The notes under the pieces: model-generated | Database searches by the model: none | The model's input: only the letters and a program-made list of their open reading frames with translations | What the model was told of the DNA's origin: nothing | Position numbers and translations under genes: made by a program | Shown: in pieces, positions 11,550 to 58,300 of the stretch | How the letters are laid out: the number at the start of each line of letters is the position of its first letter | Position numbering within the stretch: position 1 is the stretch's first letter | Source: Dioscorea cayenensis subsp. rotundata | Lineage: Eukaryota > Streptophyta > Magnoliopsida > Dioscoreales > Dioscoreaceae | Assembly (NCBI RefSeq): GCF_009730915.1 | Contig: NW_024087032.1 | Span: 1 to 64,000, forward strand | Reading direction: 5' to 3' | DNA length: 64,000 nucleotides

Positions 11550-12389
11550 GGGTAGCACATGATTAGGAATTTATATTTGTGAACTGTATGTTTATTTTCT
11601 GTTTTGATGATTTATTGCAAGTGCCGAAGATGATAAAGAATAGTGAATAATAATGAATAAATAAATAAAATAAGTAACAAAATAAATAGAGTACATAACC
11701 CTTGCCAAACGCATCATAAGGTGAATGAATCAGGTGTCCTTGCTTTGATGAATAGAAACAATGTGAGGGATGATCTTCAGGCCAAAATGTTAACAAGTAG
11801 AAAGAAATTACTAATATATCTATTCTTAATTTTTTTAAAAAAATTTGGAGAAAACATACAAAGGCTGTAGGGATAAAAAAAATGTAAAAATATAATCTCA
11901 ACCGCTGTTAATCATCTTATAAAGTGATTAACCTTTATTGACTCTCTGGTCTCCAAAATTTTCTTAAATGAAGCTCAGAAGTTAAAAACCAAAACTATAG
12001 CTATCTTCATGAGTCACTTGGGAAATAATCCCCTCTAGTAAGGATGAAATTATCAAACACCAATGATCAAGTGGTCTATTGATAGATGGGTCTCTATTAG
12101 AACTCTTTATAAGTAGAGAGCTCGAATAACAGATGAGGGCACATTTATGAGAATGTGTAGTAGTTATGTATAGGTGGTTCTAATGCCACGTGTGTGTAGG
12201 CTCCACCTTCACTTGCTTAACTGAGATTTGTGCATACCCTTGTCTTTCTTAGTGACTTAGTTGCTCATATTGAAAAAAAAAGAGAAAAAAAAGAAAAGAA
12301 AAGAAAGGCACTATCAAATACTTGGAAAAAGTTGTGTTCTTTCCAAATGGCAGATTTACCTAATGGGTACAAATTTATAAGCATGATTC

Positions 12390-13131
12390 CATAGTTGTCA
12401 AAGGCGTGCCTCGGGCGTACAGGTTCAACAACTTGCGCCTTTATAAGTGTCAGGCGGACACTGTTAAAAAGGTGTGCGTCTAGGCTCGATGCGTAGGCCT
12501 AAGCGCGCCTTCATAACATTAACAAATTAATTTGTTTTTTTTTTTAAATATTTAGTTTAACTTTTGACCTTATCCACACATCTTGATGATTGAAAATAAA
12601 AGAGGCCCACATACAATCAAAGCCGTTTAAAATTAGAGTGACCAACACACAACCAACCAAGCAGAATCAAAACTTCATCTCTCCTCTTCGGGCCGATTCA
12701 CTATTTAGATGAAGAGAATGATAAATTTGAAGAGAAAATTGATGATGTCAGTAGTGATGATAATGATGATGGACTTGATGATTTTGATGATAATCACTAA
12801 AATCTAGATTCTATTATACAAGTTAGGATTTGGACTCAATGCATGTATTATATCATATTATCGCATTTTGTATTCAACGTTTGAAGATTAATTTGCATGT
12901 TATTATGTACGTTTATTTTTCTAATGTCTGATTCTCTTCTATGATATTAATTTTTAAAACATTTTAAAACTTTAATACAAAATAATATTTGATACAACTA
13001 TTTCTGATTTTTCAATTTTTTTTAAGTGGTGACTAGTGCGCCTAGTGTCGATCGGGCACGCACATGCATCTTGCGCTTAAGTCCCAGGATCCCCTTACAT
13101 CTAGATGCGCCTTACACCTATGATAACCTTC
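12390..13131. mobile_element. Non-autonomous hAT element, deletion derivative of the element at 46950-51847
   Basis: The left end catagttgtcaaaggcg resembles the big hAT terminus caaggttgtcacaggcg, and the right end gcgccttacacctatgataa resembles its other terminus. Internally the derivative keeps a diverged copy of the 3' end of the transposase frame (Asp-rich tail near 12715-12800) and the following downstream sequence, but not the rest. The flanks share CATGATTC (12382-12389 and 13135-13142), an 8-bp target duplication with three extra bases at the right end. Copy B shows the empty site near 52020-52035. Confidence 0.75.
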
Positions 13132-13619
13132 TTACATGATTCACAATGGATCATGGAGGTGACAAGATGAATAGGATTCACGTTTCAGTTTATTGTTATA
13201 AGATGTAATGTATTCCCTTAACTAATAATACTCTTAATCTTAAAAAAAAAAAAAATTCCATGTTCTAGTAGTTCTAATTTTGCTTGTATTTGTTTCGACT
13301 CCCATGTTTAAGAGGAGCCATGTTGAGCAATATTGTTAGTCACATGAAATTAATCAATCCTTGGTAATGAAGGTGCTTGTCTAAGAGGAAACCATGCTAC
13401 TTGAGGCATGTGGGCATGTGTGGGTTACTACCTTAGAAAACGTCCCAACTGGTAACACGGATGTCTTGTGTTCTTTCTCATCAACTTATGCCTGCTCTTA
13501 CCATTTCTTCTTATCCATTTTATGAATCATTGGTCATTTGGTTGGTCTACGTCTGTTGCTATTTTTGTTCTTATCTTTTTTGTCTATTCTTCTGTTATTA
13601 ATTTGCTTGCCATTATTTA

Positions 13620-14065
13620 AGAAGATCAAACAGTTATTTCATGCAAGTCAAGTCAAAGTTCCCAACCCATCTAACGGTCAATGAGATCTCCTTTCTCTTT
13701 TTCATGCATTAAAACCATTTGGTTCTTATCAGATGAATACTTCAAAACGAGTAAAAAACACACACACACACACATCAAACAGTTAGTTCATGCAAGTCAA
13801 GTCAAGTTAAGTTTGCAACTTGTCCAACGGTCAATGACTACTCCTTTTCTCTTGCTCATGCATTAAAACCATTTGGTTCTTATCAGATGAATAAGTTAAA
13901 ACGACGCGTAAACACAAACACATCAAACAGTTAGTTCATGCTGGTCAAGTCAAGTAAAGTTCGCAACTTGTCTAACGGTGTACTCCTTTTGTCTTGCTCA
14001 TGCATTAAAACCATTAATTTGGTTCTTTTCCAGATGAATAAGCTCACACGAGTACTAAACACACA
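13620..14065. repeat. Three-copy tandem repeat, about 147-bp unit, upstream of DUF1677 copy A
   Basis: Units start near 13627, 13778 and 13924. Each holds tcaaacagttagttcatgca, a following caagtcaagt, gcatgcattaaaaccatttg-like text and tcagatgaata. A short (AC)n run separates units. The matching site in copy B (52488-52770) has only two units, so array length changed after the duplication. Confidence 0.85.
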
Positions 14066-14141
14066 CAATAAACTCTACTCGATCTTAACTTTTAAAAATA
14101 AATTTAATCCATGTTTTATACCATTAGAAATTTATCATTTA

Positions 14142-14612
14142 GGGCTTGTTTGGTTGCAAAATAAAAAAAATATGGCATGATTTTATTATGTAGGAATTGT
14201 AAGTGATTATTACAGAAATTGTGGTATATTTTATTCAGAATGAGTGTTCGGTTAACAAAAAAAAAAATTATGGAGACTGATTGATGGGTGACCGGACCAC
14301 TGGTGGACCTTCGGTGTGTCATCGGAGGCCAACCAGCTAGTGGCCGGACCATCAATGGATCTGTGGCTTGGAGCCAGAGGTCAGCCAGACCACTGGTGGA
14401 CCTCCGGCATGTCACCAGAGACCGCCCAGCCGGTGGCTAGACCACTGGTTGATGGAGGCCGGCCAGACCACTGGTGGATCGATGGTCGGTGGTTAGATCG
14501 AAAAAGAGACTTTCACAATGAAAAAACATTTCTCTTAATAGAATATTTTTTATGCCATAATACCTATATTATGCCATAATTTTATATTTTAAAATAAGTA
14601 CCAAAACAACCA
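14142..14612. mobile_element. MITE-like insertion with a GC-rich core, copy A only
   Basis: Copy B lacks this segment, so it is an insertion or a loss in B. The left end is gggcttgtttggttgcaaaa and the right end, near 14601, reads ccaaaacaacc, roughly its inverse. The middle (about 14285-14490) is unusually GC-rich and repeats the self-complementary word CCACTGGTGG within gaccactggtggacc-type units. The ends are approximate. The open frames on both strands here are products of the repeat, not genes. Confidence 0.55.
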
Positions 14613-14949
14613 ATATGACATAATTTTCAGAAAATATTAAATTATAGTATATTGTACAGATTATACCATAATTTTGGACAAATCACCTTTTTTGTTTCTT
14701 TTGTTTTATTTATTTATTTATTTATTTATTTTGGATAAATCACCCTACATATTTTTTATTATTTCAGCTCAATTATACATTGGAAGGAAATCAAACTCTC
14801 AACTTCTTACATGAGTTAACTGTTTTACTGTTCAGCTATTGCGGTAATGACAACTTATAAATTTTCTAAAATTAACTTATATAAAAGAAAAACCTTTTGA
14901 TATAGACTCAAGTATATATATATAAGTCTAAAATTAACTTATACACTAA

Positions 14950-15837
14950 GGGGCTGTTTGATTACCTGCAACTAGCTGTAAGTAAGCAGTAATGTAGTCG
15001 ATTTTTTACATGTAAAAATCTTTGTTTGGTTTCTTTGTGAAATCGGTTTTACGTATAACAGATTTTTGCGATTTTAGTGTCTTTTCTCTGCATTTCAACT
15101 TTCTGACGAAAAATTTTTTCACTGTAAGTTGAAATGCAAAGAAAACATTTGATCTAAAATCACCATTCTTCACTCTCCAAATTATGTATTAAAAGAAAAT
15201 GAAAAACTTACATGTAATCAATTGTTAATATAATTAAACTTATACTTATTTATATTTTATTAAATTTATTTTTTTATTTAAAATATACCAATTTGTATTT
15301 AATTTTAATTAAAAAAATATTTTTTTATATAAAATTAAAGAATTTTATATATTTTTAATTTAATAAAATTATTATTAAGTTAATTAATTAATTAATTTAC
15401 ATTAGTGTTAAGAGTAGATGGGGAGAGTTAAATTAATTATTTAGAGTTAGTATTTAATTATTTAAGTTTCTTATTATTATTTGGCTTAGTTATTTGAGTT
15501 TCTGATTATTATTTTTAAATGTAATAAATACTTTATTAAATCATTTAATTTAATTTAAAAATTAAATTAGATTAAATTAAATTAATTATTTTAGTTTAAA
15601 TTATTTTTTTAAAATGCATTAAATAATTAATAATAATACAGTATATTGGGGGTAATCTCACCCCTCTACTTACATGGTGACCATATCTTCTAACTTACAT
15701 CAAACCAAACAAATTAAAAGTAATGCAGCATTTTCAGTTACAACAAACCAAACAGCAGTGATATAAATAGAAATGCAACATTTTCACTTACATTATAATT
15801 TCACTTACATGTAATTTCACTTACAGACAACCAAACA
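14950..15837. mobile_element. PIF/Harbinger-type MITE (TAA target duplication)
   Basis: Starts ggggctgtttgattacctgc and ends ttacagacaaccaaaca, flanked on both sides by TAA (14947-14949 and 15838-15840). The ends and the subterminal words (tttcacttacat, ggggtaatctcacccctcta, acatcaaaccaaac) match, in inverse orientation, the ends of the Harbinger element at 37383-42566. It is therefore probably a non-autonomous relative. The interior is almost pure A/T and non-coding. Confidence 0.75.
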
Positions 15838-17283
15838 TAAATTGGAATTAGGATCTTATACTACCAAGGACTCAAAAATTTCGCCGGACTACACGTGGGC
15901 AAGATCAGTCCCAAAATGTGAACCAACTTTTTTGATTTTGATTGTTTATTTGCCACAAAATGGTAATATACTAAGTCTTTATTTGCTATTCCTATTTATT
16001 TTATTTTATATTATATTGTTTAAAATTTTATGAGAGGCAGAAGCAATATATATATTGACAAAATAGATAGCTATAGCATTCTACATTGTCACCGAACAAT
16101 GAACATCATAGCCCATAAAGAACTTATCAAGGTTATACGCAATTTTTTTAAATATTATTTGCACACTCACCTTGTGCCCGCAGAGATTCAATCCTCATCA
16201 CCCGAATCAAAGAAATTTTGGTATTAATAGGCTATAAAACTATTGGTGCAATAAATATTTTCACTTCTCTAAAACTACCATCATAAATAGTTCACCTCTA
16301 TGCTTCCACTTCAACACAAAAAAACATGTACTCGTAACTACAAATACATAGATAATCAAATAAGTTTTTCATCTTAATCATAATCCAACTTTTTTTATTT
16401 TTTTCTTTCTTTTTACAAATGCAACAAGCATAATTAGTCTGGAGTGGGCATATAGACGAGAATTGATTGTCCCGGCCAAACACCCTCGCCCAACGACACA
16501 TATTTAGACTACAAACCCAAATCTACAACCAAAAATCTGTTGCCACTACTACATGTAAAAGAATTTAAACCCAAATCACTTAAAAAATTCCACATCACAC
16601 TTTTCACAATTGAGCCAATACCATTGAACTAATGAATCCTTTTGGCATAATCCCACATCATTCCTTATATGGTTGAAACATCTATATTATTATATTTGAA
16701 ATTTGTTGAAAGAAAAATACAATTAAAATCGGTATTACTACAAGGGTATACACATATAAAATATTATATATATGTATGTATACACACAATATATACATAT
16801 AGATATATAGATATATATGAAATTTGTTACAAGGATATACACACACACAATATATACAAGGATAAGCAAGTAATATCAATATTTCATAGTGGTCTATATG
16901 TAACAAAACCCAGTGCCCTCTTAACTCCCAAAAGCTTGAAAAAACTCAGCATGTGACTGATCACAAGCCGCAATATCCAAAAAGAGCAAAATATTTATTC
17001 CATGCCTTCTTACAACTCACAAGCAACATGTTCTTCAAGGCTCTACTATCCCCTATTACATGCAAATATATCCATTATTGAAGCACATACACAACTAAAC
17101 CTAGGTGTCAATCCAAGGTTCCCTGCATCTCACTCCACTCATGTCTACTTGCCATTTGCAAAACCCTAACCACAAACCCTAACTAAACAAAAGTTGATCA
17201 TATTAATTGGAGATCCACAAGCACCCTATCCACAAATTAATCATCCTCTCAACTTTTATAATCCACTTGTCTTACTAATATTC

Positions 17284-17290
17284 TATAAAA
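17284..17290 (+). promoter_or_regulatory. TATA box of DUF1677 copy A
   Basis: TATAAAA lies 55 bases before the ATG at 17339, which predicts a very short 5' UTR of about 20-25 nt. The same box and context (tataaaagggtgggttttca) are preserved in copy B. Confidence 0.7.
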
Positions 17291-17338
17291 GGGTGGGTTT
17301 TCATGCAAAACCCTAGTTCATTAAACTTGCAAGTACAC

Positions 17339-17936
17339 ATGCAGTCCAAAATGATCAACCATGAAGAACAGCAAGTGCCACACAAGGTAAATGAAAACTC
17401 ACCATTGACACTTAATGGTTTGATTTTGAGCATAAGAAACTTACTTTATCTCTGCATGATCACTTGCATAGAATGATCAAGTCCTTAGAAGAGCCTGCTC
17501 TGATGTTGTTACTGAGGCTGGTAAGCTCATCAATGGCTTTGACATCAGCTTAAGCTTGAAGATTAACAACAATGAAGTTGAAATGGTGGAGTGTGAGTGT
17601 TGTGGATTGTGCGAGGAATGTACTCCTACTTACATAATGAGTATTAAGGACTCCTTTGGTGGGAAATGGATCTGCGGGCTGTGCTCGGAAGCTGTGAAAG
17701 AGAAGATGAAGCGAAACCTGGGTCTTGCCATTGATGGAGCACTGGAGAATCACGGTGCTTTCTGCAAGCAGTTCAATCAGACCATTAGGATCAACCCTAA
17801 GCTCTCACTTGCTGGTGCAATGAGGGATATTGCAAGGAGGAGCTATCAGAATAGGAACTCTACTAAGGATTTTTGTGAGTCTAAGATTGCCAGAACTATG
17901 AGTTGTGTCAAGGTCCGGAGATCATCTTTCCAATAA
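17339..17936 (+). CDS. DUF1677 family protein, copy A, 2 exons, 170 aa
   Basis: Exons 17339-17386 and 17472-17936, GT-AG intron, phase 0, stop TAA. The protein starts MQSKMINHEEQQ and has the cysteine-rich core of the plant DUF1677 family: VECECCGLCEECTPTYI (Cys 57, 59, 60, 63, 66) and WICGLCSEAVKEKMKR (Cys 84, 87), which looks like a zinc-binding module, though that is inference. No biochemical role is known for the family. The first ATG follows the TATA box closely and both exons join without a stop. Compared with copy B (54456-55067) it has about a dozen base differences, one extra C-terminal Gln, and lacks six residues near the C-terminus. The frame is intact, so it may be expressed. Confidence 0.85.
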
Positions 17937-18262
17937 TATATATATATATATATATATGGCAAAATTTGACACCTATTTTACAACAGCAGCAGTCAGCTTT
18001 TAACTGAAAAAAAAGTCAGATGGTAAGAAAGAAGTATATGATATGCCAATATCAACATTATTGATAACTCATAAACAGAAAAAGAACTTTATAATTAAAT
18101 GCGCGGCCATTGTGCACACTTGATGCCCTTCTGGATCAGCCTGGTTTTCAATTCTACCTCATCCTTGAACCTGAATCCACAAGCAGTAGAAATTCAACAA
18201 TTAAAAGTTTAAAAATTACAAGATGCACAAATGATTATTCTACCTTGATGAGCAGATCGAGG

Positions 18263-20423
18263 TTAAGATTTTAAATATTCTTCCCAGCTTTCACGCTCAA
18301 GTTTCTCTGCTTTTGTAAGTACAGTCTCTTTCATGTCTTCTTGGTATTTTACAACTCTATATATTATATGACATTAGATTAGAAGGTGTTGAAAATCATC
18401 TGTTTGACCATAATTACAAGACTAACAATACCTGTACCATAACTTAGCATCTCCATTTGCCAAAATCCTAACTGCTAACAAGGCTGCATTGGCTGAATTA
18501 CCAATTGCAACGGTGGCCACTGGGATTCCTTTCGGCATCCATGATTTCAAATGAAAAATCAATTGGTTTTCAGTTTTCTCACACATTCAAGGTGTCAGGT
18601 GACGTATTAGCCAAAAGAAATCTAAACATGATTAGGTCACAAACATCTTACAAGTTTGTTACATTGTTAATTCTTGCCAGAATTCTTCATATGTTTGAGT
18701 CTTCAATACTTCATGAAAAGATTTTACATATGATTACTACTTATATATGCATGTGGGGGATCTCATTCAATATAAATCTTCTCTTTCCTTTACGGTGTTA
18801 ATGGAGGTAATATCTATGGTAATACTTATTGTGCTTAAAACCTTCAACCCAGGCTAACATGGAATCCTCGATCGTATTATTTTAATTTTCTTTTGGCATC
18901 CTTGTTTTTGCAAAAAAGCTATGATTAATCTATAATGGAAAGAGAAACATGTCAGATACACTTGCCTTATACTTAAGTAGCACTAGCCTTTCAGTATGAA
19001 GTTCTAAACCAACATTACTCAGAACCACCAAGGGCCATCAGAATTTTATATCCCTTGAAAGGAAGAAGCTTAAGTATGACTTGAACTGAAAGAACTTAAA
19101 ATGACTGCAAACCCTTACCCACATATTCATTTCTTCCATTCTATACAAGGCAAGTAAAGGAATGCAATAAATGTAACAGAAAGTAAAGAAAAAAAAATTG
19201 CTTAGCTTACCTCGACAATGGATAAGAGGGAATCAACTCCATCCAGTGAAGCAGTTCTAATGGGGATGCCAATTACAGGCAAAGATGTCAATGAGGCCAC
19301 CAAACCTTAATAATAATAATACAATATCAATTGGTAAAACAACAGAACTATTGCAACCTTTAACTACTTCATATAATCTAGCAAAATTAACCTGGTAAAT
19401 GTGCTGCACCACCAGTACCAGCAATGATGACATGAATTCCCTTGTTCTTTGCAGATGAAGCAAAAGAGTACATCCTATCAGGGGTCCGGTGTGCCGAAAC
19501 AATAATTACCTGTAAATTTTTTTATACATACAGACACTGTGTTAAATAAGATGTCTAATGATAATTCAAAATTTTCCACAAATGTTATCTCCAAACCATA
19601 GCTCAACCTCAAATGGCACATCAAAGTTCTTCAGGACCACAGCTGCATCCTTCATTATAGGAAGGTCTGAATCAGAGCCCATGATTATGGCAACTTGAGG
19701 AATGACTGCAGACACACAAGATTGACATTATCAACTTAATATGATTTGGTCAGAAGTACTGTTCTGCACATGTTGTTCATTATTAACATAAGAGAAGGGA
19801 AGGCCATGTAGCCATGAAGAACAATCCTGTAAAGAGTAAACTCAGGAATCCAAATAAATTTCATTACATGGCAAAAAGTTTGCATGTATCACAATGGGGA
19901 TATCAGAGTAAATTGTCTCTCCTAACCTTGACCATTAAGACTAGGTTACCGGTTAATTAATCAAGGACAAATGCAATTGTTTTACATGAAAAAAGAAAAA
20001 GAAAAGAAAAGAACAAGGACATAATGACAGAAAATGAAAATTTCAGCTGAACAAATCACAATAAGGTCTACAACTAAAATGCATGTATTAGAATGAGCAT
20101 TATGATAACCAGCCTAATGTTGAATGTCAACAATTATTCCTTACAGGACACACGAATAAAGATGATACCAAGATATAAAATCAATGTGATTAAAAGGATG
20201 CATCAAGCGTTCTCCCCAATGAAAAGATGAAAGGAAAAATTTCTCAAAACATCATATGAGGCATAAGGAAAAGGAATATATTATATTTCAGAATTGAAAT
20301 ATGATATAAGACCTGCAGTTTGGCTCTGATCATTGTTCTGTATGGAGTTTACGCGTGATTTCACAATGTTCATGGAAGATCCTGTGATTGTTATATGGCC
20401 CATCTTTCGTAGCTTCCACATAT
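18263..20423 (-). pseudogene. Truncated AIR carboxylase fragment: exons 11-16 only, PurE part
   Basis: Six blocks match the 3' exons of the full gene at 55387-61212: 20313-20423, 19608-19705, 19392-19509, 19211-19305, 18431-18537 (approximate) and 18263-18356. They encode most of a PurE domain, including [14 protein letters not shown] and SAHRTP. Everything upstream (transit peptide, PurK/ATP-grasp part, exons 1-10) is absent because the duplication breaks off at 20438. The splice acceptor of exon 15 is GG instead of AG (tcatGGatgcc here, tcatAGatgcc in copy B). The normally invariant [11 protein letters not shown] loop reads [11 protein letters not shown], and Gln at the end of exon 14 is Glu. 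No start codon or promoter is evident. I call it a pseudogene, although no in-frame stop was seen in the exons I read. Confidence 0.85.
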
Positions 20424-20654
20424 CTGAGCATTATTACATATAAGCTGCTACAACAATTAGAGTCATCACATTACTGCTGTATCTTCAATCCATTTCCATT
20501 AATAAAAATTCTGCCACAGATTGTTGAATGTTGATACAGCAAAACCATGCCAAAGAATACAATATGTTGCTGTCTTTTACAGCTGAAAAAGCACAATAAA
20601 TAACAGCTCTGAAACTGGATAGAAGTAGCCGTGGGAAAGTCTGTTATGGATAGA

Positions 20655-23600
20655 CTATCTGATCTTCTTCAGAGTCTTGACTTTTTCAAAATCCAGAGCG
20701 ATGTAGTTCTTCTCTATCTCCCATGCCAAGTGAGACATGGAGTTGAACGATGATTTCACACCCTTCTCATCTGTGACTTCACTAGGAAATGGGATGCGGA
20801 CTGCAAACACACTGTCGCCAGAATATACATACAAGTCAAAGCCTAGCCGGTCAACCCATATCATCTTTGTGTCTCTAACCTGCCATGTGGAGATTATGCA
20901 TCATTTTTGCAAACGGTTTCAGGATCAATCACAGAGTGAAAAATATCATGAAAGATGGCCCATATAAATGTGCAACTTAGTTTACTTATGCTTGTCTAAA
21001 TATGAGCTTGTTCTTTGAACATGTTCCCTATTGGCAAACATAATCGAAGGATATTTTGTGAAACTATCAGTAATTATTGTTGTTTCCAGGCTCTTGCTAA
21101 TAAAAGCTGCAAGACTCTGAGAAAATACTCTCCAATCACATATCATCCTGCACAATGGCAAAGCTTTAGAAATAGATAGACGTATTAACTGATGCAAACC
21201 TGAAATTCTGTGTCCACATAAATGTTGCACAATCGGCGGACTTCTTCAGAATGTACAGAGTTCATTTCATTGACGATCTTTGCAGCAAAGTTCCTAAGTG
21301 GATCAGGTTCAGCATTTATATATTCCAATGAGTTTACCCAGAGGCCACCCTGGAAAAAGAAGGCCCATAACAGTTTTTAGGAATATCTGGGTTGTTCACA
21401 AATTAAGTAAACATTCCCGCTGACAATCTACTGAAAATTTAGCTTATCAGAAGAAGTAACAAGCACAAATAAATCATTGAACTCTCAATACGATGGATGA
21501 CAAATTTATGTAAGTGTATATGAGCAGATTTTGATTAATAAAACTTCCAATGGTACTTAAAAATTAGAAATATCGAACTACATCAGCGTGTCTTGATTAT
21601 GTTTGTTCTAATTTTTAAATAAGTAATGATTTAATTAGTAAGTAGCATAAATACACATAACCGAAGTCGATTACAACCAGAAAGGCAAAAAGGGGAAATG
21701 CTTGAAGCTGTGAGCAAAGAAACAAAGTACAAGAAAATAAATTCAAATGTGCTCCTAACACATGGTAGCAAGAGCAGAAAAGTTAATATTGAATTCACCA
21801 TGTAATGATTCTACATCAAACATTAGCTATACTTAATTCACTGTGTTTGGATTTCTACATCAAAAATTAGCTACACTAGTATGAAAAAAATATACTTGGT
21901 GAAGATTTTATCTGGGCCTGGTAGCTTCAGGATGCAGTTTCACCAACTTTCTTGAGCATTTTATATACATATATATAAATTTTTTATTTCCCATGTTATG
22001 CAGTTCAATACCAAATTTAAAATTCTTACTGCACTTGCTCATCATACTTAAAACACATAATGAGCAATTGGATATTGTCTGAATTTCCTCAAAAAAAGAG
22101 TATGGGACCAATTCAATTACTATTGAGAAAACCAAAATATCCTTTCATTCCAAGCATACCTCATTGAAATTTTCCACCTGAAGGACACGTTCAACTGAAA
22201 TCACATACAAAAAGTCCTTATCCACTTCTTCACCAAACTTTCTTTCCCATTTCGTGCAAAGCCTCTGCAGGAAAATCCTGTTTAATCTCTCAAGATGCTA
22301 AAATGCAAACTGAAGAAAATATTCTGAACATTACTATAAAGTTAAGCAACATGAAAAAGAACCCACTTTATGTCGAATGACAAACATTTTCGAGTACCAA
22401 ATCCTTAGTGACTTGTTGACTTCTCTAAAACCACCAAGGGCATTACCTTCAAGAGCGATTCATCCTCAGTTTTGTTTAAGCTCCCCAAAATAGTGCATTG
22501 TGGGGTGCGCAAACCACTCTGCTCAAACTGTTGTTCGAAGTTGCACATAAACAAAATTATCAATTAGTGAAAACTAGAACAATCACTCAATGCTAAAGTT
22601 GAAACATGGCATAATAAAAGAAGCAACCAATGAATAAAAAGAAATCCTTCACCTCTCCAAATAACAAAACCAAATCACTGACAAGATATGTATTTCACCC
22701 ATGTTTCCAAAATTCAGAAAAATTGTCAAGCAATTAACTTTATGCAAACCACATAAGAATTCTCGGAAAGATGAGTAAAGAGAAATCCTTCACCTCTCCA
22801 AATAACAAAACAAAATCACTGATAAGAAATGTATTTCACCCTTAATTCCATAATTTAGAAAAAATTTCAAGCACTGCAAACCACATAAGAATTCTCAAAA
22901 AGATCCCCCACCCTTCCCTGCTTAAGGTGTTCATGTCTTGTTAAAGAAGGGGGTTCGAAGCTTAGCTTGTGCAACAGTGCAAGGTGAGGGCACATGTATT
23001 GTTGAGTTTGCTATTGCAAACTCCACGCATGTGCCCGCCCTGACATTTCCAGAATTCATTCAAAATCCTAACTTGAAGTATTCATACACTAGAGAACACA
23101 AAAATCTCTAAGTAATTAACCTAAAAAATCTTCCACCAAATTCTCACAATTTGGCAAACCATAATTACAAGCTCTATCTATCCGTCAGTGTCAGTAGACA
23201 GCATAAAAATCGCAACATTAGTATAAACTCATATAAAATTGCTCAAAAATGAAATCAAAATTCACAAATTTCTTAATTCGACATAGTAGGCATACAGAAA
23301 GAAAAAGAAAGGGTCAATCTACGACCCCCTAAAACTTGCCAACAAAATCAAAGCTTGAGAGTCATTACCCCAACATGAAAACTTGACTTTCCACAAGCCT
23401 GGAAGAACCTCTCGCTGTCATTCAAGCACAGAGCCGGCAGTCCCTGGGCGTCAACGACGAACCGAGCTCCAATACCGAGCGGCCACCCATCGTCAACCGT
23501 GGTTGACAGCGTTCCAACAGAGGCGAGTTCCATAATAGTCCTGGAGACCTCCGCAAGAGAAGGTTTCACATGGCGTTCTTGATCTTCTTTCAAAGGCGAA

Positions 23601-28135: not shown

Positions 28136-28202
28136 TTTGTGTATATATTTATGGGTTCTATAGATGGAAAAACTTATAAAATTGTCAATTTATAAGAAAA
28201 AG

Positions 28203-29190: not shown

Positions 29191-29305
29191 TATTCTAGCA
29201 CATTATTCAATTATTGTGTTGCCTATATATAAACAACTTCATGTCATCTCTCATTTCAACCATTATTATCAAAAAATCTCTCTTTCATTGTAACCCACGA
29301 AAAAA

Positions 29306-31131: not shown

Positions 31132-31240
31132 TATTAGGGTTATTAGAGCACTTGTATATGTTGCATGATATTACTTCTTTACCCACACCTTGTAATATAT
31201 AAAAATCATCATCAATAAGCAATTATCTCCTTCCTTTGCA
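31132..31240 (+). repeat. 5' LTR of the copia element
   Basis: Begins TATTAGGGTTATTAGAGCAC and ends CTTTGCA directly before the primer-binding site. The usual TG start appears as TA in both LTRs. The first two bases overlap the TTA target duplication of the Pong-like element. Confidence 0.8.
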
Positions 31241-36111: not shown

Positions 36112-36118
36112 GGGGGTA

Positions 36119-40791: not shown

Positions 40792-40794
<3 letters not shown>

Positions 40795-40836: not shown

Positions 40837-40839
<3 letters not shown>

Positions 40840-44151: not shown

Positions 44152-44353
44152 ATAAAGTGATTAATCTTTATCGACACTAAATGCTAGCCTCCAAAATTTT
44201 CTTCTTTAAAACTCAATGAGTTAAAACCAAAACTATTGCATATCTTTATGAGCCACTCTGGAGATTCCCCCCTCTACTAAGGATGACACTATTAAACACC
44301 AATGATCAGGTGGTCTATTAATTTGATAGTTGAATGTTTATTAGAACTCTTTA

Positions 44354-46869: not shown

Positions 46870-47961
46870 CTTTATAAGTAGAGAGTTCGAATAACAAGTG
46901 AGGACACATTTTTGAGAATGTGTAGTGGTTATGTACAGGTGGTTTCAATCAAGGTTGTCACAGGCGCGCCTGAGGCGCCAGGCGCACGAGGCTCACCCAT
47001 GTGCGCCTTTATCCACATGAGGCGGGCGGTGTCAAGGAGGTGCGCGCCTCTGAGCCCAGGCGCCAGGCGAAGGCCTAGGCGCGCCTCCATGATATGCAGT
47101 AGGTTTTTTCCCATTCATTTCTACTTTAAATCATGGCCACACATCTTGTTTTAAAGTTTTAATCTCATCCACATATTTGCATCTTGATGATTTAAATTGG
47201 AGAAACCTAATCTAATCCACATATCAACAAATCAACCAATCAACCAATCTTATCCATAGAAAATCTCCAAACCCTCGTCACTCCTCTCCTCTCCCTTGCA
47301 TTTGGCTGGATCAGCACCCCGAATTATCCCTTGAATCTGGATTCTAGATCAGCACCGCCACCTCTCCCTTGGATCCAGATCAGCACTGCCAGGTCCGCCA
47401 CCTCTCCCTTGCATCCGATTGAATCAGCACCGCGGCACCGTCACCTTTCTCTTGCATCCGATTGAATCAGCACCGCGACACCGCCTCATCTCCCTTACAT
47501 CTCACTTGCATCCGGCTGGATCAACACCACCTCCTCATCTGAGATTTGTGTAATTGTTGATTTTTTAAATTTAATTTTGTTATAATTTGTGTATTAAATA
47601 TTAAAGAAATATATATATATATATATATATATATTGGTTGATGTTCTCTTCCATGATATGCTGTAGCCTGTAGTTCATCAAATTGTTCTTGTAATACTGT
47701 TGACATCAATAAGATTATGCAGCAAGAAAAATGAAGGGATCTCAACAATTAAGAATTAAAACTAATATATTTCTTTAACTATTTTGTATGATTGTATCTT
47801 AAAGCTTCTTGCATAATTGCATTGCATTAAGTAACAATACAAGTTAGAAGGAATTAATATGAGAATAAATGTGTTAGTTAAATGATTGATGTTTTAGTTA
47901 TACACTTATGCAGTTATACATATATAATTAAATGCTCAACCATTTTATCGTTTATAGGTAC

Positions 47962-50900
47962 ATGGCTTCTTCAAATGAGAAGACTATTTCATCATCAAGT
48001 GGAAAAAGTGATCCATGTTGGAAATATGTTCAATGCATTAATCCAAACAATAAGAATGATTTGAAATGCAACTTTTGCGATAAAGTTACAAAAGGTGGAA
48101 TATTTAGAGCTAAACAACATATTGTGGGAGGTTTTAGAAATACAACCATTTGCCAAAGATGCCCACCACCTATGCGAGAAGAGATTCAATCTTTTATGAT
48201 AAATAAGGTTAATGCAAGCAAGATGTTTGAAGGTAATTTTCCGGATAATATTATTGAAGTAGATGCTTTTGGCGGTGATGAAGAAGATGAAGATGAAAAA
48301 ACCATTATGATGAGCTCGCACCAAGGAAGTAGTAAAAATTTGAATGCAAAGAAACGACAACGACAAAAGGGACCAATAGATTTATACTTCACACAAAATG
48401 CTGAAAATTCAAGAAAAAAGGAAAGAAATCTAAAGCAAACAACAATCAATGATACTTGCAAGAAGGAGTTGCGGGAAGAGCATGTAGAGAAATAGCTCGA
48501 TGGTTGTATGATGCAGCGATTCCATTTAATGTCGTTAAATATCCTCAATTTCAAGTAATGATCGATGCAATTGGTCAATATGGTATTGGCATGAAAGCAC
48601 CTAGCTACCATGAGGTCCGTGTCTCCTTCCTTAATAAAGAAATGGAGGTTAGCAAAAAGATATTACAGTCCTATGAAGAAGAATGGGCACATTATGGTTG
48701 CTCTATAATGGCTGATGGTTGGACAGACAAGAGGAATAGGACATTGATAAAGTTTTTGGTGAATTCTCCAAAAGGAACTGTGTTCTTAGAATCTATTGAT
48801 GCTTCGGGTTATGCAGAAACTGGAGAAAAAATGTTTGAGTTGGTTGATCACATGGTTCAACGTGTTGGAGAGAAAAATGTCATACCAGTAGTTACTGATA
48901 GCGGATCCGTTAATGTCTTTGCAGGTATAGAATTAATCTATCCATCGTATCCTATTACATGTTATTTGATTACTTTATTAACTCAAAGTGTTCATTTATT
49001 TGATGATTTTTGAATTTATTTTCAGGTAAGCGCCTGGAAGAAAAATATAAGAATTTGTTTTGGACTCTTTGTGCAGCACATTGTTTGGATTTGATTTTGG
49101 AAGATATTGGTAAGATATCAAATGTGAAAAGAACTGTACAAAGAGCAATCAGCTTAAACTCCTTCATTTATGTTCGACCGGGCATGGTTAATATGTTGAG
49201 GAGTTTTACCGGTCAAAGAGAACTTGTTAGGCCGGGTGTTACAAGGTTTGCCACGGCATTTCTCACACTTAGGGCTGTAAACGAGCCGAGCCGAGCCGAG
49301 CTTTGCCTTGTTCAAGCTTGGCTCGTTACTATTTAATCGAGCTTGAACTCGAGCCGAGCTTTCTTCGAGCTTCATTTTTTATATTCAAGCTTAGCTCGTT
49401 ACTATTTTAACCGAGCTCGAGCTCTAATCGAGCTTCTTTCGAGCTTCATGCTCGAGCTCAACTTGTTAAGAAAATTCGAAACTTAGACTTAGCTAGCTAA
49501 CTTGATTAAGGCTTGACTATTTTTTTTATATTTTATTTTTTTATTTAGTAAACTTATTTAATGAATCATTATCAAGTGTGACTCAACTCGATTTGGGTTT
49601 GATTATATTAATGATTGTTACAAATAAAATTGTAAATGATACTATAAACGAGCTTTTAATTATACAATAAACGAGTTCTTCACAAGATTTAATGAGCCGA
49701 GTTTGGTGGTGTTCAAGCTTGGCTCGTTTATCTTATGAGCTCATTTAACTTAATGAACTAGTTGACCTGAGCTTTTAATGAGCTTAGCCTTCGAATAGTA
49801 GTTTATAGCCCTATATGTGTAACTCAAATTGACAACAATGACATAGTCACATATACACCTTAATATACATATACATATATATAATGTAATATATATATAT
49901 AAACGAGCTCACAATCGAGCTTATAAACGAGCTTGTTCATGAGCTGTGTTCGCGAGCCAAAACGAGCCTAGCTTTTGGCTGCTCAAGCTTGGCTCGTTTA
50001 TTAATCGAGCTTGAAAATGATGTTCAAGCTTGGCTCGTTTACAATATGAGCTAAACACGAACGAGCCTTTATCGAGCCGAACACCGAGCTACTCACGAAC
50101 GGCTCGGCTCAAATACACCCCTTGACACACTTCAACGAATCCATAAATTGAAGAATTGTTTGAGGAAAATGTTTACTTCTGAAGAATGGGAAAAGAGTAA
50201 GTGGTTAAAGGAAATTGCCGGGAAAAAAACACAAGCTAGTATAATGATGACAAGATTTTGGACAAGCATTGTATATATTTTAAAGATTTTCGGCCCTCTA
50301 GTTAATGTGCTTCGATTGGTTGATGGTGAGAAAAAACCGGCTATGGGATACATTTACGAAGCCATGGATAGGGCTAAGGAAGCTATAGCAAAGTCGTTTG
50401 GAGAAAATGAAGAACCATACAAAGATGTGTTTGATATCATTGACAAACTATGGGAATGTCAACTTCACCGACCTTTGCATGCGGCTGGGCACTATCTTAA
50501 TCCGGAATTTTTTTTATGCCAACCCAATGGAGATTATCAGGACTAGTGAGATAATGGATGGAGTGCTTGAAACTCTAGAGAGATTGGTTCCTGATGCTTC
50601 ATGTCAAGACAAAATCAACAATCAAATGAGTATATATCAAAATGCGGGTGGCATATTTGGAAGAAACTTGGCAATTAGGAATCAAAGTTTGAAATCACCA
50701 GGTACATAAGTTTTGTAACTTTTGTTATAAATTGATAAGATTTAACTTATACTATTGTGTAAGTGTGTAACTAACTTTGTTATTAATTAATTTCATTAAT
50801 AGTCGAATGGTGGAAATCTTATGGAGCCTCAACTCCAGAGTTGCTAGATTTTGCAATCAAAGTACTCAGTCTAACTTGTAGCGCATCCGGTTGCGAGCGT

Positions 50901-51576
50901 AATTGGAGTATTTTTTGAACATGTAAGAATTATACTTATATAATATATTAGATATTGTTGTTTTCCTTTTAATATTGTAGATTAACCCCTAAGGCCCTTA
51001 ACTTTATACTATAATAAATATATAATGTTGTCTTTGTTTTTTCAGGTTCATACTAAAAAAAGGAGTAGACTTGATCAACAAAAGTTGAAAGATTTGGTCT
51101 TTGTGAAATATAACCGAGCACTAAAGCGTCGATATGATGACCGTGATCATATTGACCCCATTTCTTTACAAGATATTGATGATGCAAATGAGTGGTTAAT
51201 GGGTACGCTAGAACAAGAGCAAGGAGATGACGAACTAGTGTTTGGTGATGATGACCTTACTTGGGATGTAGTTGAAAGAGCGGCAGGGGTTGATGAAAGC
51301 GCACATACTACTCGAGGTCGAGGAGGAGGAGAGGGAATAAATACTAGTGCTTCAAGTTCAAGGCCATCAAAGGGGAAAGAGAAGGCAATGAAGCCATCAT
51401 TTGCTAGTTTGAGAACCCCCTTAATTTCTAGAGATGGCAATGATGAGGAAGAAAATCTTGGAGATGATTATTTTGATGAAGAGAATGATGAATTTGAAGA
51501 GAAATTTGGAGTTGGTGATGATGATAATTATGAAGCACTTGATGGTTTTGAATATTTTGATGATGAAAGTCATTAG
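47962..51576 (+). pseudogene. hAT transposase gene (BED finger, DUF659, hAT dimerisation), disrupted
   Basis: The first coding block from 47962 has a BED-type finger (CWKYVQCINPNN, CNFCDK, AKQH). A frameshift near 48456 follows. DUF659 then reads IARWLYDAAIPFNVV, PSYHEVRVSFLNKEM and MADGWTDKRNRTLIKFLVNS. There is an intron at about 48926-49024, then TLCAAHCLDLILEDIGK and FATAFLTL. Here an 854-bp element interrupts the gene, and RIHKLKNCLRKMFTSEEWEK resumes at 50133. One extra T near 50515 and one near 50915 shift the frame, the second just after the dimerisation motif CERNWSIF. The last exon (about 51047-51576) has a basic then very acidic tail. At least three frameshifts plus the insertion leave it non-functional. 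Confidence 0.85.
49271..50124. mobile_element. 854-bp MITE inserted in the hAT transposase gene
   Basis: Starts agggctgtaaacgagccgag. The reverse complement of its right end reads aggggtgtatttgagccgag, so the ends are inverted repeats. Flanks are TCACACTT (49263-49270) and ACACACTT (50125-50132), an 8-bp target duplication with one mismatch that fits the hAT superfamily. The interior is built from GAGCC/GGCTC and caagcttggctcgttta words on both strands. Removing it restores the reading FLTL-RIHK of the host transposase. Non-coding. Confidence 0.85.
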
Positions 51577-52487
51577 TGGCTAGATTTTTATTATGAGTTA
51601 GGAGTTAGGACTCAATGGGTGCATTATATCATATTATTGCATTTTGGTCTTGAACATTTGAACTTATTATGTCATTATGCATGTTGGTGCCTTCTATGAT
51701 ATTAATCTATAGAACAGTTTATAAACTCTTTCATTTTTTTTCTAAGTGGGCCTAGTGTCGCTCGGGCGAGCACTGCACCTTGTGCCTTGCGCCTAGGCTC
51801 CAGGACCCCCTTGCGCCTAGATGCGCCTTGCGCCTGTGACAACCTTGGTTTCAATGCCCACGTGTGCATAGGGCCCACTTTCACTTGCTCAACCAAAGTT
51901 TGTGCATATCTTTGCCTTTTTTAGCGACTTAGATGCTCTCATTTTGGCAAAACAAAAAAAAAGTTGTATCGAATGCTTGGAAAAGGTTGTGTTCTTTCCA
52001 AATGCCTGATTTACCTAATGGGATGATTCACAATGGATCATGGAGGTGACCAGATGAATAGGATTCACATTTCAGTTTATTGTTATAAGATGTAATGTAT
52101 ACCCTTAACTGATCCTTTTAATCTTTAAAAAAAATAAAAATAAAAATAAAAATCCCATGTTCTAATAGTGTTCTAATTTTGCTTGCATTTGTTTCAACTC
52201 CCATGTTTAAGAGGAGCCATGTTGAGCAATATTGTTAGTCACATGAAATTAATCAATCCTTGGTAATGAAGGTGTTTGTCTAAGAGGAACCCATGCTACT
52301 TGAGGCATGTGGGCTCTTGCCTTAGAAAACCTCTCAACTGGTAACACGGATGTCTTGTGTTCTTTCTCATCAACTTATGCCTGCTCTTACTACTTCTTAT
52401 CCATTTATGAATCATTGGTCTACGTCTGTTGCTATTTTTGTTCTTATCTTTTGTCTATTCTTCTGTTATTTGCTTGCCATTTGAGAA

Positions 52488-52770
52488 GATCAAACAGTTA
52501 TTTCATGCAAGTCAAGTCAAAGTTCCCAACTTGTTTAACGGTCAATGAGATCTCCTTTCTCTTGTTCATGCATTAAAACCATTTGGTTTCTATCAGATGA
52601 ATAACTTAACACGAGTAAACACAAACACATCAAACAGTTAGTTCATGCAAGTCAAGTTAAGTTTGCAACTTGTCTAGCGGTCAATGACTACTCCTTTTCT
52701 CTTGCTCATGCATTAAGGCCATTTGGCTCTTATCAGATGAATAAGTTAACACGATTAAACACACACTGAA
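52488..52770. repeat. Two-copy tandem repeat, about 140-bp unit, upstream of DUF1677 copy B
   Basis: Units start near 52490 and 52630 with tcaaacagtta(g/t)ttcatgcaag; counterpart of the three-unit array in copy A at 13620-14065. Confidence 0.8.
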
Positions 52771-54400
52771 CTCTACTCGGAATAAGGAAATTTCCAGGAA
52801 TTTAGATATTAACTTTAAAAATAAATTTAATTCTTGTCTTCTACCATTAGAAATTTGTCATTTAATCTTATTTGTCCCCCATGTTTATGTTGTTTTTGTT
52901 TTTTAACTGTGAACAAATCACTCTATACATTTTTTATTATTTCACTTTAACTATGTATTGAAAAAAAATCAAAATCATATGAGAGTTTTACTGTTCAACT
53001 ATTATGGTAATGACAACATATAAATTTTCTAAAATAAACTTATATAAAAGAGTTTAGAAATACTTTAATATTGACTCGCATCCTCACCTTGCCATTACCA
53101 CAATACTTTTGATATCAAGGTTCATCTATTATTAATAAATATCAAGGTGAGGGGGATTGAACCCCTGATAAGTTCTTTGTGGGTTGGGACATCCATTGTT
53201 AGGTGGTAATGTAGAATGTTCATGAACACAATACTTTATAAAAATATCTTTTGATATTGACAAAATAGATAAACTCTTGATACTGTAGTAATGGCACCCT
53301 CACCTTACGCCTGTAGGGATTCAATCCCTGTTACCCACAAGTCTAAGGAGTTTTGGTACCAATAGTCTATAAAACTGTTGATGCAATAAATATTTTCATT
53401 TCCCTAAAACAACCATCATAAATAGTTCACCTCTATACTTCCACTTCGACACAAAGAAACATGTACTTATAATCTCTATTCTAATAACTGCAAATCCATG
53501 GCCAAACACAATCAAATAAGTTTTTCACCTTAATTATAGTCCACCTTACTCTTCTTTTTTATTTTAAATATAAACATAATTAATCAAGAGCGAACATACA
53601 AACATAAACAAATCATCCAGCCAACACACCCTCACCCAGTGATACACAGTTGGACTGCAAATCCAAATCCACAACTAAAAATCCGTTACCACTACTATAT
53701 TCAGTGAAATTTGAACTCAAGACATTTGAAAATCCCACAACACACTTTTAGCAATCGATCCAATACCATTGGGCTAATGAATCCTTTGACATAATCTTGT
53801 GTCATTCCTTATATGGTTGAATTAACTCTCACGTCTATATATTATTATATTTGAAATTTGTTAACAGGAAAATACAACTAATATCGATATTATTACGAGG
53901 GTATACACATATACAATATTATATATATATATATATATATGAAATTTGTTACAAGGATATGCAAATAATATCAATATGTCATAGGGGTCTAAATGTAACA
54001 AAACACAGTGCCCTCTTAACTCCCAAAAGCTTGAAAAGACTCAGCATGTGACTGATCACAAGCCGCAATATCCAAAAAAAGCAATATTTATTCCATGCCT
54101 TCTTACAACTCACAAGCAACATGTTCTTCTAGATGTTCTTCTAGATGTTCTTCAAGGCTCTACTATCCCCTATTACATGCAAATATATCCATAATTGAAG
54201 CACATACACAACTAAACCTAGGTGTCAATCCAAGGTTCCCTGTATCTCACTCCACTCATGTCTACTAGCCATTTGCAAAACCCTAACCACAAACCCTAAC
54301 TAAACAAAAGTTGGTCATACTAATTGGAGATCCACAAGCACCCTATCCACAAATTAATCATCTTCTCACCTTTTATAATCCACTTGTCTTACTAATATTC

Positions 54401-54407
54401 TATAAAA
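54401..54407 (+). promoter_or_regulatory. TATA box of DUF1677 copy B
   Basis: TATAAAA, 55 bases upstream of the ATG at 54456, in the same context as in copy A. The surrounding 150 bases, including the repeated word aaaccctaac, are also almost unchanged between copies. Confidence 0.7.
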
Positions 54408-54455
54408 GGGTGGGTTTTCATGCAAAACCCTAGTTCATTAAACTTGCAAGTACCC

Positions 54456-55067
54456 ATGCAGTCCAAAATGATCAACCATGAAGAACAGCAAGTGCCACAC
54501 AAGGTAAATGAAAACTCACCTTTGACACTTAATGGTTTGATTTGAGCATAAGAAACTTACTTTATCTCTGCATGATCACTTGCATAGAATAATCGAGTCC
54601 TTAGAAGAGCCTGCTCTGATGTTGTTACTGAGGCTGGTAAGCTCATCAATGGCTTTGACATCAGCTTAAGCTTGAAGATTAACAACAATGAAATTGAAAT
54701 GGTGGAGTGTGAGTGTTGTGGATTGTGCGAGGAATGTACTCCTACTTACATAATGAGTATTAAGGACTCCTTCGGTGGGAAATGGATCTGCGGGTTGTGC
54801 TCTGAAGCTGTGAAAGAGAAGATGAAGCGAAACCCGGATCTTGCCATTGACGGAGCACTGGAGAATCACGGTGCTTTCTGCAAGCAGTTCAATCAGACCA
54901 TTAGGATCAACCCTAAGCTCTCACTTGCTGGTGCTATGAGGGATATTGCAAGGAGGAGCTATCAGAATAGGAACTCTACTAAGGATTTTTGTGAGTCTAA
55001 GATTGCCAGAGCTATGAGTTGTGATCCATTTATGAGTTGTGTCAAGGTCCGGAGATCATCTTTCTAA
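54456..55067 (+). CDS. DUF1677 family protein, copy B, 2 exons, 175 aa
   Basis: Exons 54456-54503 and 54588-55067, GT-AG intron, phase 0, stop TAA. It has the same cysteine-rich core as copy A (VECECCGLCEECTPTYI, WICGLCSEAVKEKMKR) and the same conserved middle (FCKQFNQTIRINPKLSLAGA, MRDIARRSYQNRNSTKDFCE). The C-terminus reads AMSCDPFMSCVKVRRSSF; copy A lacks one of the two flanking atgagttgtg words and the bases between, an 18-bp in-frame loss by slippage. Other changes are N18/R19 in place of D/Q and a few conservative ones. The function of the family is unknown. It lies tail to tail with AIR carboxylase; the two stops are about 320 bases apart. Confidence 0.85.
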
Positions 55068-55291
55068 TAATATATAGAATGACAAAGTTTGACACCTATT
55101 TTACAACAGCAGCAGTCAGCTTTTAACTGAAAAAAAAGTCAGATGGTAAGAAAGAAGCATATGAGGATGATTTGTCAATATCAGCATTATTGATAACTCA
55201 TAAACAGAAAAAGAACTTTATAATTAAACGCAGGGCCATTGTTGATGCCCTTCTGGATCAGCCTGGTTTTCAATTCTTCCTCATCCTTGAA

Positions 55292-55368
55292 CCTGAATCC
55301 ACAAGCAGTAGGAATTCAACAATTAAAAGTTGAAAAATTACAAGATGTACTAATGATAAAATTCTACC
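55292..55368 (-). other. Probable 3'-UTR intron of AIR carboxylase
   Basis: Downstream of the AIR carboxylase stop (55387) the - strand has a good donor, caag|gtagaat, at 55368/55367 and an acceptor, gattcag|gttc, at 55293/55292. The following stretch to about 55240 is well conserved between the two copies and keeps one open frame in both (FRFKDE, ELKTRLIQKGI). The reading frame of the enzyme ends before it with the usual family C-terminus, so I take it as a spliced 3' UTR. Confidence 0.45.
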
Positions 55369-55386
55369 TTGATAAGCAGGTTGAGG

Positions 55387-58300
55387 TTAAGATTTTAAAT
55401 ATTCTTCCCAGCCTTCATGCTCAATTTTCTCTGCTTTTGTAAGTACAGTCTCTTTCATGTCTTCTTGGTATTTTACAACTCTATATATTATATGACATTA
55501 GATTAGAAGGTGTTGAAAATCATCTGTTTGACCATAATTACAAGATTAACAATACCTGTCCCATAACTTAGCATCTCCATTCGCCAAAATCCTAACTGCT
55601 AATAAGGCTGCATTGGCTGCATTGCCGATCGCAACGGTGGCCACTGGGATTCCTTTCGGCATCTATGATTTCGAATGAAAAATCAATTGGTTTTCAGATT
55701 TCTCACACACATTCAAGGTGTCAGGTGACGCATAAGTCAAAAGAAATTTAAACATGATTAAGTCACAAACATCTTACAAGTTTGTTACATTGTTAATTCT
55801 TGTCAGAATTCTTCATATGTTTGAGTCTTCAATTTCAAGAAAAGAATTTACCGATGATTGCTACTAACATATGAACTGTGGGGATCTCATTCAATACAAA
55901 TCTTATCTTTCCTTTATTGTGTTAAAGGAGGTCATATCTATGGTAATACTTACTGCACTTAAAACCTTCAACCCAGGCTAACATGGAATCCTTGTGTTAT
56001 TTTAATATATATTGGCATCCTTGCTTTTGCAAATTTAAGCTATGCTTAATCTATAATGGAAAGAGAAACATGTCAGATACACTTGCCTTATACCTAAGTC
56101 GCATTGGCCTTTAATTATGAAGTTCTATACCAACACTACTCAGTACCATCAAGGGCCATCAGAATTTCATATCCCTTGAAAGGAAGAAGCTCAAGTATGA
56201 CTTGACCTGCATGAACTAATAATAACTGCAAACCCTTACCCAAATATTCATTTCTTCCATTCTATACAAGGCAAGTAAAGGAATGCAATAAATGTAACAG
56301 AAAGTAAAGAAAAAAATGTGCTTAGCTTACCTGGACAATGGATAAGAGGGAATCAACCCCATCAAGTGAAGCAGTTCTAATGGGGATGCCAATTACAGGC
56401 AAAGAGGTCAATGAGGCCACCATACCTTAAAAAAAAAATACATATATATATATAATAAAAATAATAAAATACAACACCAATTGGTAAAACAACAGAACTA
56501 TTGCAACCTTTAACCACTTCATATAATCTAGCAAAACTAACCTGGCAAATGTGCTGCACCACCAGCACCAGCAATGATGACTTGAATTCCCCTGTCCTTT
56601 GCAGCTGAAGCAAAAGAGTACATCCTATCAGGTGTCCGGTGTGCCGAAACAATAGTTACCTGTAAATTTTTTTTATACATACAGACACTGTGTTAAATGA
56701 GATGTCTAATGATAAATCAAAATTTTCCACAAATGTTATCTCCAAACCATAATTTTGTTGAGACAAGCTCAACCTCAAATGGCACATCAAAGTTCTTCAG
56801 GACCACTGCTGCATCCTTCATTATAGGAAGGTCTGAATCAGAGCCCATGATTATGGCAACTTGAGGAATGACTGCAGACACACAAGATTGACATTATCAA
56901 CTTAATATGATTTGGTCAGAAGTACTGTTCTGAAAATGTTCAATTTTAACATAAGAGAAGGGAAGACCATGTAGCCAGGAAAAACAATCCTGTAAAGCCT
57001 TTTAACTCAGGAATCCAAATAAACTTCATTACATGGCAAAAGTTTGCCTATATCACAATGGAGATATCAGAGTAAATTGTCTCTCCTAACCTTGCCCATT
57101 AAGACTAGGGTGATGGTTAATTAATCAAGGACAATTGCAATTGTTTTACATGAAAAAAGAAAAAGAAGAAAAGAACAAGGACATAATGACAGAAAAATGA
57201 AACTTTCAGCTGAACAAATCACAATAAGGTCCATGACTAAAATGCATGTATTAGCATGAGCATTATGATAACCAGCCTAATCTTGAATGTCAACTTATAT
57301 TCCTTACAGAACACAGGAATAAAGATGATACGTAGGTATAAAATCAATGTGATTAAAAGGATGCAACAAGCATTCTCCCCAATGTAAAGATGAAAGGAAA
57401 TATTTCTCAAAACATCATATGAAGCATAAGGAAAAGGAATATATTTTCATAATTGAAATATGATATAAAACCTGCAGTTTGGCTCTGATCATTGTTCAGC
57501 ATGGAGTTTAGGCGTGATTTCACAATGTTCATGGAAGATCCTGTGATTGTTATATGACCCATCTTTCGTAGCTTCCGCATATCTGAGCATTATTACAAAT
57601 ATTTGTGCTATTACAAATAAATAAAGGAATAGACAAAAGTCAATATTCCAATCGAAAAAATAGACAACATTGCCTGACCTGACTTATCATACCAATGAAT
57701 GGAAGCTCCAGGAACTTTTAAAGCTCTTCCAATGAGGTCATGAGCTAACTTGAGCCCTGGCTCTCCCTAAACACAAGGCATGCAAGAACAACTTAAATGG
57801 CAGGTTAGAAATGGAATTGAAATCATTAGCTTGCATCAATTATGATGGTAATATTAGATGGGATTCAAACTTCACAGAATTTAGCCTAATGATTGAGAAT
57901 AATGCAAGAAAACACACTAAAAGAGACAACCAGATGAACAGCTATTATAATCACTGGAAATGAAAAGGTGAAATTTTAAAGTGAAAGGGAAGCAAGTATA
58001 ATGCTCCTCCAATTTCATCACTTTGACATCACAGAACACACAATTGCGTGCATATGCAATGTAAGAAGATCTTATAACGCTGTCAAAGAACAGAGTCCTT
58101 ATTTGAGCACCCAAACTATAGGGCAGCTAAGCAATAGCTAGAATGCTTCACAAAGAAAAAATTTCTGAGTTCTCATGTAACTGTAACCAAAGGAAAATAC
58201 TCTGCAACTTTGACATGAATGGTTGCGTATGTTCAAAAGTAAGAGCTGCTGATAAAATTACCTCATCTTCACCCAATATGTTATACATGATTGCAGCTGG

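Follow-up and report, generated by a model that had tools for sequence, protein, structure and literature searches.

Proximal segmental duplication of a DUF1677 gene and the 3′ part of an AIR carboxylase gene in Dioscorea cayenensis subsp. rotundata

The duplicated block and its insertions

A 64,000-nucleotide stretch of Dioscorea cayenensis subsp. rotundata DNA (contig NW_024087032.1, positions 1 to 64,000; hereafter the window) contains two copies of a block that carries a DUF1677 gene and exons 11-16 of an AIR carboxylase gene. Copy A (11919..20459) lies between a gene that we take to be TMX2-like and a gene for a GluTR-binding protein (GluTRBP), and copy B (44152..57619) runs on into the intact AIR carboxylase gene. 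Direct BLAST of the two segments and self-BLAST of the whole window revealed that the copies are colinear, share the same orientation and have sharp edges, as the initial annotation had described for 11919-20438 and 44152-57597. With two close colinear copies on one chromosome the arrangement is a proximal segmental duplication, and the local duplication is real.

Self-alignment, which the annotation had proposed for mapping breakpoints and divergence, placed the left edge at 11919/44152 in every alignment made and the right edge at 20442-20459 in A and 57601-57619 in B, varying with the scoring. The right edge of A falls inside intron 10 of the AIR carboxylase gene, the intron where the breakpoint had been predicted, and the scoring sets its distance upstream of exon 11 at 19-36 bp. 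It is also about 195 bp downstream of the stop codon of the GluTRBP gene, which lies on the same strand. Just to the left of A, positions 11850-11918 gave weak matches only.

Between these edges the homology is broken into pieces. The left part aligns as 11919-12110/44152-44354, 12102-12179/46867-46944, and 12175-12367/51846-52022 (A/B throughout), and the middle as 13136-13919/52023-52766, 13774-14141/52489-52864, and 14717-14888/52895-53051. The main aligned block, 16153-20442/53286-57601, is 87.6% identical by direct BLAST over 4428 columns including gaps, and a base-by-base alignment of 16153-20475 contains 290 mismatches, gaps apart. In total, the homologous DNA in A amounts to about 6 kb (11919-12367, 13136-14141, 14621-14909, and 16153-20459). 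The duplication had been given a length of 8-13 kb; the block itself stands, but the shared DNA is about 6 kb and the remainder is largely later insertion. A long terminal repeat (LTR)-type element and a hAT inflate B to approximately 13 kb; A carries insertions of its own. A 148-bp tandem repeat within the block is present in three copies in A (13625..14068, plus strand) and has as its counterpart in B two copies of 140 bp (52489-52763), both identified by Tandem Repeats Finder.

Divergence between the copies is patchy, ranging from 2.6% to 17.8%, and the uniform divergence that had been offered as a sign of one event was not found. Mismatch is 16.4% in 16153-16840 (77 transitions, 27 transversions), 2.6% around DUF1677 (16841-17936), 4.6% in 17937-18450, and 6.6% across the AIR carboxylase introns (18451-20459), while the left aligned pieces range from 5.1% to 17.8%. 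Several stretches at 16-18% divergence are rich in transitions, which may reflect DNA methylation through methylation-driven mutation. The stretch 16153-16840 adjoins a transposon insertion, and CG and CHG sites are the most often changed per site. The direction of G/C-to-A/T decay was considered as a clue to a silenced copy and set aside, as there is no clear bias (42 versus 35 in 16153-16840); the largest skew, 6 versus 13, occurs in 14717-14888. Corrected intron divergence is 0.070. Plant substitution rates are about 2.5e-9 to 7e-9 per site per year, none of them specific to this plant, and would place the duplication, very roughly, at 5 to 14 million years ago. Misassembly, for instance of a haplotype collapsed or put in the wrong place, is highly improbable because the copies differ in their introns (by about 7%), their insertions and their flanks, and because A is truncated at a precise point.

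The copy-specific insertions are well delimited. In copy A, a short hAT-type insertion of 745 bp (12390..13134) is flanked by the 8-bp target duplication CATGATTC; this target occurs once in B, which lacks 14 bp beside it. In copy B, a full-length hAT (46950..51847) has 18-bp terminal repeats, the 8-bp target duplication GTTTCAAT and an open reading frame (ORF) matching Pfam DUF659, together with a zf-BED match below the Pfam cut-off; its target occurs once in A, with two base differences. Also in B, an LTR-type insertion (44354..46869) begins with TG, ends with CA and is flanked by the 5-bp target duplication CTTTA, which is again found once in A. Self-BLAST of the window detected no long internal direct repeat in this insertion, and it is perhaps a solo LTR. 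Because the target sites are single-copy in the partner, the one insertion in A and the two in B postdate the duplication, in agreement with the order of events first proposed. The ends of the A element are related to those of the hAT in B at 63-67%; the two appear about 200 bp apart in A numbering as independent insertions, each with its own 8-bp duplication.

A PIF/Harbinger-like non-autonomous element in A (14950..15837) has TAA flanks and an incomplete 3′ terminal repeat, and its segment 15507-15837 is similar by self-BLAST to 37388-37724. A further PIF/Harbinger-type terminal repeat (44127..44151, minus strand) abuts copy B on the left, its outer end matching the edge to the base. A 17-mer search with the Harbinger terminal repeat gave four matches with at most three mismatches, 44127..44151 among them, where 0.04 were expected. 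The superfamily signatures tabulated in PMC4423477 (Table 1) are TAA/TTA and GG(G/C)CC for Harbinger, and 8 bp and CA for hAT.

Different fates of the two duplicated genes

The intact AIR carboxylase gene (55387..61212, minus strand) has 16 exons encoding 629 aa, with exons 11-16 in copy B and exons 1-10 to the right of it. Read from 61212 to 55387, the spliced model has a single, terminal stop codon and GT/AG at all internal borders, the exon 1-2 junction having been picked from 15 open candidates. Pieces of the gene match Pfam preATP-grasp, ATP-grasp and AIRC, and the expectation that copy B continues into a complete gene was borne out.

In copy A only exons 11-16 are present (18263..20423, minus strand), as a 206-codon open frame over the PurE domain. 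These exons total 623 bases in both copies, each open as 206 codons beginning with ATG, and all five introns between exons 11 and 16 align in A. When joined across a damaged splice site at exon 15, the A-side protein contains a complete PurE/AIR carboxylase domain above curated cut-offs: Pfam AIRC scores 214.6 bits in A (positions 1-147 of 148; cut-off 30) and 226.5 in B, and NCBIfam purE TIGR01162 scores 214 bits in A and 224.5 in B (cut-off 149.6). The damage consists of a change from AG to GG at the exon-15 acceptor; of the six acceptors the other five are intact, as is every one of the five donors. A loss of the donor after exon 12 through a 15-bp deletion in A was also considered and ruled out, since the donor GTTGAG is kept. 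Within 18539-18580 of A, the change that destroys the acceptor also converts an in-frame TAG to TGG and opens 13 upstream codons, so that splicing at an AG further upstream would produce a variant still in frame.

Across exons 11-16, 29 of 618 sites differ (4.7%), in line with the few-percent exon divergence first estimated. Twelve of these changes are synonymous and 17 nonsynonymous (ratio 0.42), and the 17 compare with 15.7 nonsynonymous changes expected if one copy were free and 31.4 if both were. Three of the changed residues lie at conserved positions in the five Protein Data Bank (PDB) alignments compared (of 36 matches): the glutamine of SIVQMP (E in A) and the methionine after HLPG (L in A) are conserved in five of five, and an alanine in an 11-residue stretch (T in A) in four of five. 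The retained introns identify the A fragment as a non-processed duplicated pseudogene, and its disablement and loss of constraint are seen in the absence of exons 1-10 from the copy, the lost acceptor and the number of amino-acid changes expected of a free copy, with the caveat that its frame is still open and has no indel. The A-side AIR carboxylase sequence thus appears best read as a decaying gene fragment that drifts as one free copy would.

The neighbouring DUF1677 gene presents a different pattern. It occupies 17339..17936 in A (plus strand; exons 17339-17386 and 17472-17936; 170 aa) and 54456..55067 in B (plus strand; 175 aa), under the same two-exon model in which exon 1 and the splice are predicted. 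Pfam DUF1677 matches the ORF at 17556-17936 in A (1.8e-35) and the ORF at 54672-55067 in B (7.6e-36), and the frame is open in both copies. Ten of 504 compared sites differ, and towards the 3′ end A additionally has an 18-bp gap. The ten differences comprise five synonymous and five nonsynonymous changes; an earlier count of exon 2 alone (138 codons) gave five and three. Five nonsynonymous changes compare with an expectation of 13.4 for one copy free to change at the intron rate (P=0.008, a count that leaves out a changed codon beside the 18-bp gap), and adding that codon (T/A) brings the number to six (P=0.02). Because amino-acid changes are scarcer than they would be with one copy unconstrained, both DUF1677 copies appear to have been kept by selection. 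The stretch upstream of DUF1677 also differs less than the AIR carboxylase introns do (18/648 versus 102/1534; Fisher 1.9e-4). Gene conversion over DUF1677, suggested by the 2.6% divergence, was considered and rejected: synonymous divergence (5/99.8 sites) is near the intron rate (102/1534), which makes constraint the simpler reading, although the counts are small.

Origin of the duplication

The best explanation, which we consider probable, is one proximal copy-and-insert of B-type sequence that left DUF1677 kept twice beside a decaying gene fragment. A B-like source would have supplied the DNA from the left of DUF1677 to AIR carboxylase intron 10, and the copied stretch, its orientation unchanged, would have become copy A on insertion between the TMX2-like gene and the GluTRBP 3′ end. 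DUF1677 would have been carried whole with its upstream region, and the AIR carboxylase tail would have arrived without a promoter or exons 1-10 and then decayed. The hAT, LTR-type and Harbinger-like elements would later have inserted in each copy independently, while other transposons would have filled the space between the copies.

We infer the direction from B to A because, among the AIR carboxylase exons searched, only B has those upstream of exon 11. The search for a second copy in the window covered eight of the ten upstream exons (1-3, 5, 6 and 8-10) and three GluTRBP pieces, and returned only short weak matches, the best being 16 residues in a Pro/Ser repeat (E=0.002). We likewise infer a single event, with joining via end-joining or synthesis-dependent repair rather than a transposase. 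End-joining with synthesis-dependent strand annealing is described as a route that copies gene fragments in plants (PMC7935947), and break repair with copied filler DNA is offered as an explanation for such blocks (PMC7935947, PMC3445842). On this reading the locus would resemble the non-collinear gene insertions described as filler DNA at double-strand breaks, in which host sequence is copied into a break in a transposon-rich setting (PMC3445842, PMC4423477); unlike those described there, it is proximal, and it measured about 6 kb before insertions, compared with 1-123 bp for the rice excision fillers.

Several observations weigh against this account. First, the AIR carboxylase exons contain no indels; with A alone free, the expectation is 3.8 (P=0.02, all intron indels counted) or 2.2 when simple-sequence indels are excluded (P=0.11). 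This hints that the A fragment may have been constrained for a time. Second, with a transposon end forming the left edge of B, the original boundary of the duplication on that side may have disappeared. Third, an AT-rich tandem repeat further left of A (11047-11560, 77% A+T) gives 31 weak matches on both strands, the best of which, 11047-11238 to 42775-42957, is colinear with B (63%, E about 1e-8, without a low-complexity filter). We read this match as composition because it is one of 31 such weak matches in a 77% A+T stretch, with homology as a possibility. Finally, a larger tandem duplication followed by loss of exons 1-10 from A would look much alike.

Such a tandem duplication would have included the whole AIR carboxylase gene, with deletions later removing exons 1-10 from A, and a deletion together with a transposon insertion trimming the left of B. 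The nearness and shared orientation of the copies fit this history, as do the transposon end at the left of B, the colinear AT-rich match, and the indel-free exons of A with five acceptors and five donors kept, as if recently truncated. However, it requires at least two further deletions, and no remnant of a larger unit is seen, since neither the GluTRBP pieces nor the eight upstream exons searched recur in the window beyond short weak matches. We consider it unlikely.

The Harbinger-type end at 44151 raises another possibility, a variant that overlaps with the copy-and-insert account, in which alternative transposition, or gap filling at a transposon-induced break, drove the copying. In its favor, the left edge of the homology coincides exactly with the outer end of the terminal repeat; such mechanisms are described for maize Ac (PMC3744419) and for terminal inverted repeat elements in animals (PMC8277862), and a study of rice describes filler DNA at sites of excision (PMC4423477). 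The arrangement is also like that reported for reversed-ends alternative transposition of maize Ac, a local duplication keeping the same orientation and bordered on one side by a transposon end, and unlike it in showing no 8-bp target duplication at the junctions and no suitable hAT end pair (PMC3744419). A check for alternative transposition found a Harbinger-type end at the left edge of B only and no target duplication. The right edge has no visible transposon end, and by eye there is no target-site duplication around A. The repeat at 44151 may itself be a later insertion, since A has a TAA target motif there. We consider involvement of a transposon in the copying unlikely.

Capture of the whole block by a Helitron or Pack-TIR element was rejected: read by eye against the end rules of Helitrons, with no dedicated search, neither end of A shows a terminal inverted repeat, a target duplication or termini of Helitron type.

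Returning to the preferred copy-and-insert reading, the distance over which the block moved had been put at about 25 kb. The present gap between the copies is 23.7 kb, but the original distance is uncertain and was probably shorter, because the gap beyond the GluTRBP gene holds several transposons. One of these is a Copia-type element (31132-36222) with gag and RVT_2 ORFs and terminal repeats of about 104 bp that are 93% identical. A 212-bp tandem array (28202-29200; 4.7 copies, 95%) sits between Plant_tran (26760-27458) and NAM-associated (29672-30310) ORFs, and the array and its flanking ORFs are perhaps a PIF/Harbinger element. Further along, an RNA-recognition-motif exon fragment (41463-41537; Pfam RRM_1, 1.3e-4) lies between Harbinger-type terminal repeats at 37383 and 42566 and looks as if it were a captured host gene piece. 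Rfam gave no match at gathering thresholds.

Flanking genes and significance

Both flanks of copy A had been assigned to host genes, and the assignments fared differently. The gene to the right (20658..23785, minus strand) is well matched as GluTRBP: both its first ORF (4.3e-17) and its last exon (3.1e-29) align with PDB 4n7r, and Pfam DUF2470 is found in it. For the gene to the left, three ORF pieces gave no Pfam match and one gave no meaningful PDB match, so that TMX2-like is a tentative name.

The interval between the GluTRBP stop codon and the AIR carboxylase fragment (20460-20657) contains no AATAAA on the sense strand, and GluTRBP transcripts may thus run into the fragment. Copy A would then be alive, with transcription from GluTRBP continuing through the AIR carboxylase exons and the start codon of exon 11 yielding a stand-alone PurE protein. 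Such a protein would contrast with the plant PurE-PurK fusion, as encoded by the gene of copy B. We regard this outcome as very unlikely. The layout is like that of Arabidopsis rearranged gene pairs described with read-through chimeras (PMC6545605) in that a gene immediately precedes a duplicated fragment, in this case with both on one strand; unlike those pairs, the chimera here is only a possibility.

The event is of a known kind, an ordinary proximal segmental duplication in plant genome evolution. Like the proximal and tandem duplicated pseudogenes described in plants (PMC7935947), the A-side AIR carboxylase is a non-processed, intron-bearing, truncated copy near its parent; unlike those described, it was accompanied by a complete neighbor, DUF1677, of which both copies look retained. 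Among the matches listed in literature searches on DUF1677 and on plant AIR carboxylase duplication or truncation, no title or opening of an abstract concerned this duplication.

The locus provides a well-preserved example of a local duplication sorting its contents: DUF1677, a small gene of unknown function carried whole, is apparently kept twice along with conserved upstream sequence, and the adjoining gene tail appears to drift. If read-through from GluTRBP were true, the locus would also serve as a natural experiment on the means by which plants keep chimeric transcripts from rearranged gene pairs in check.

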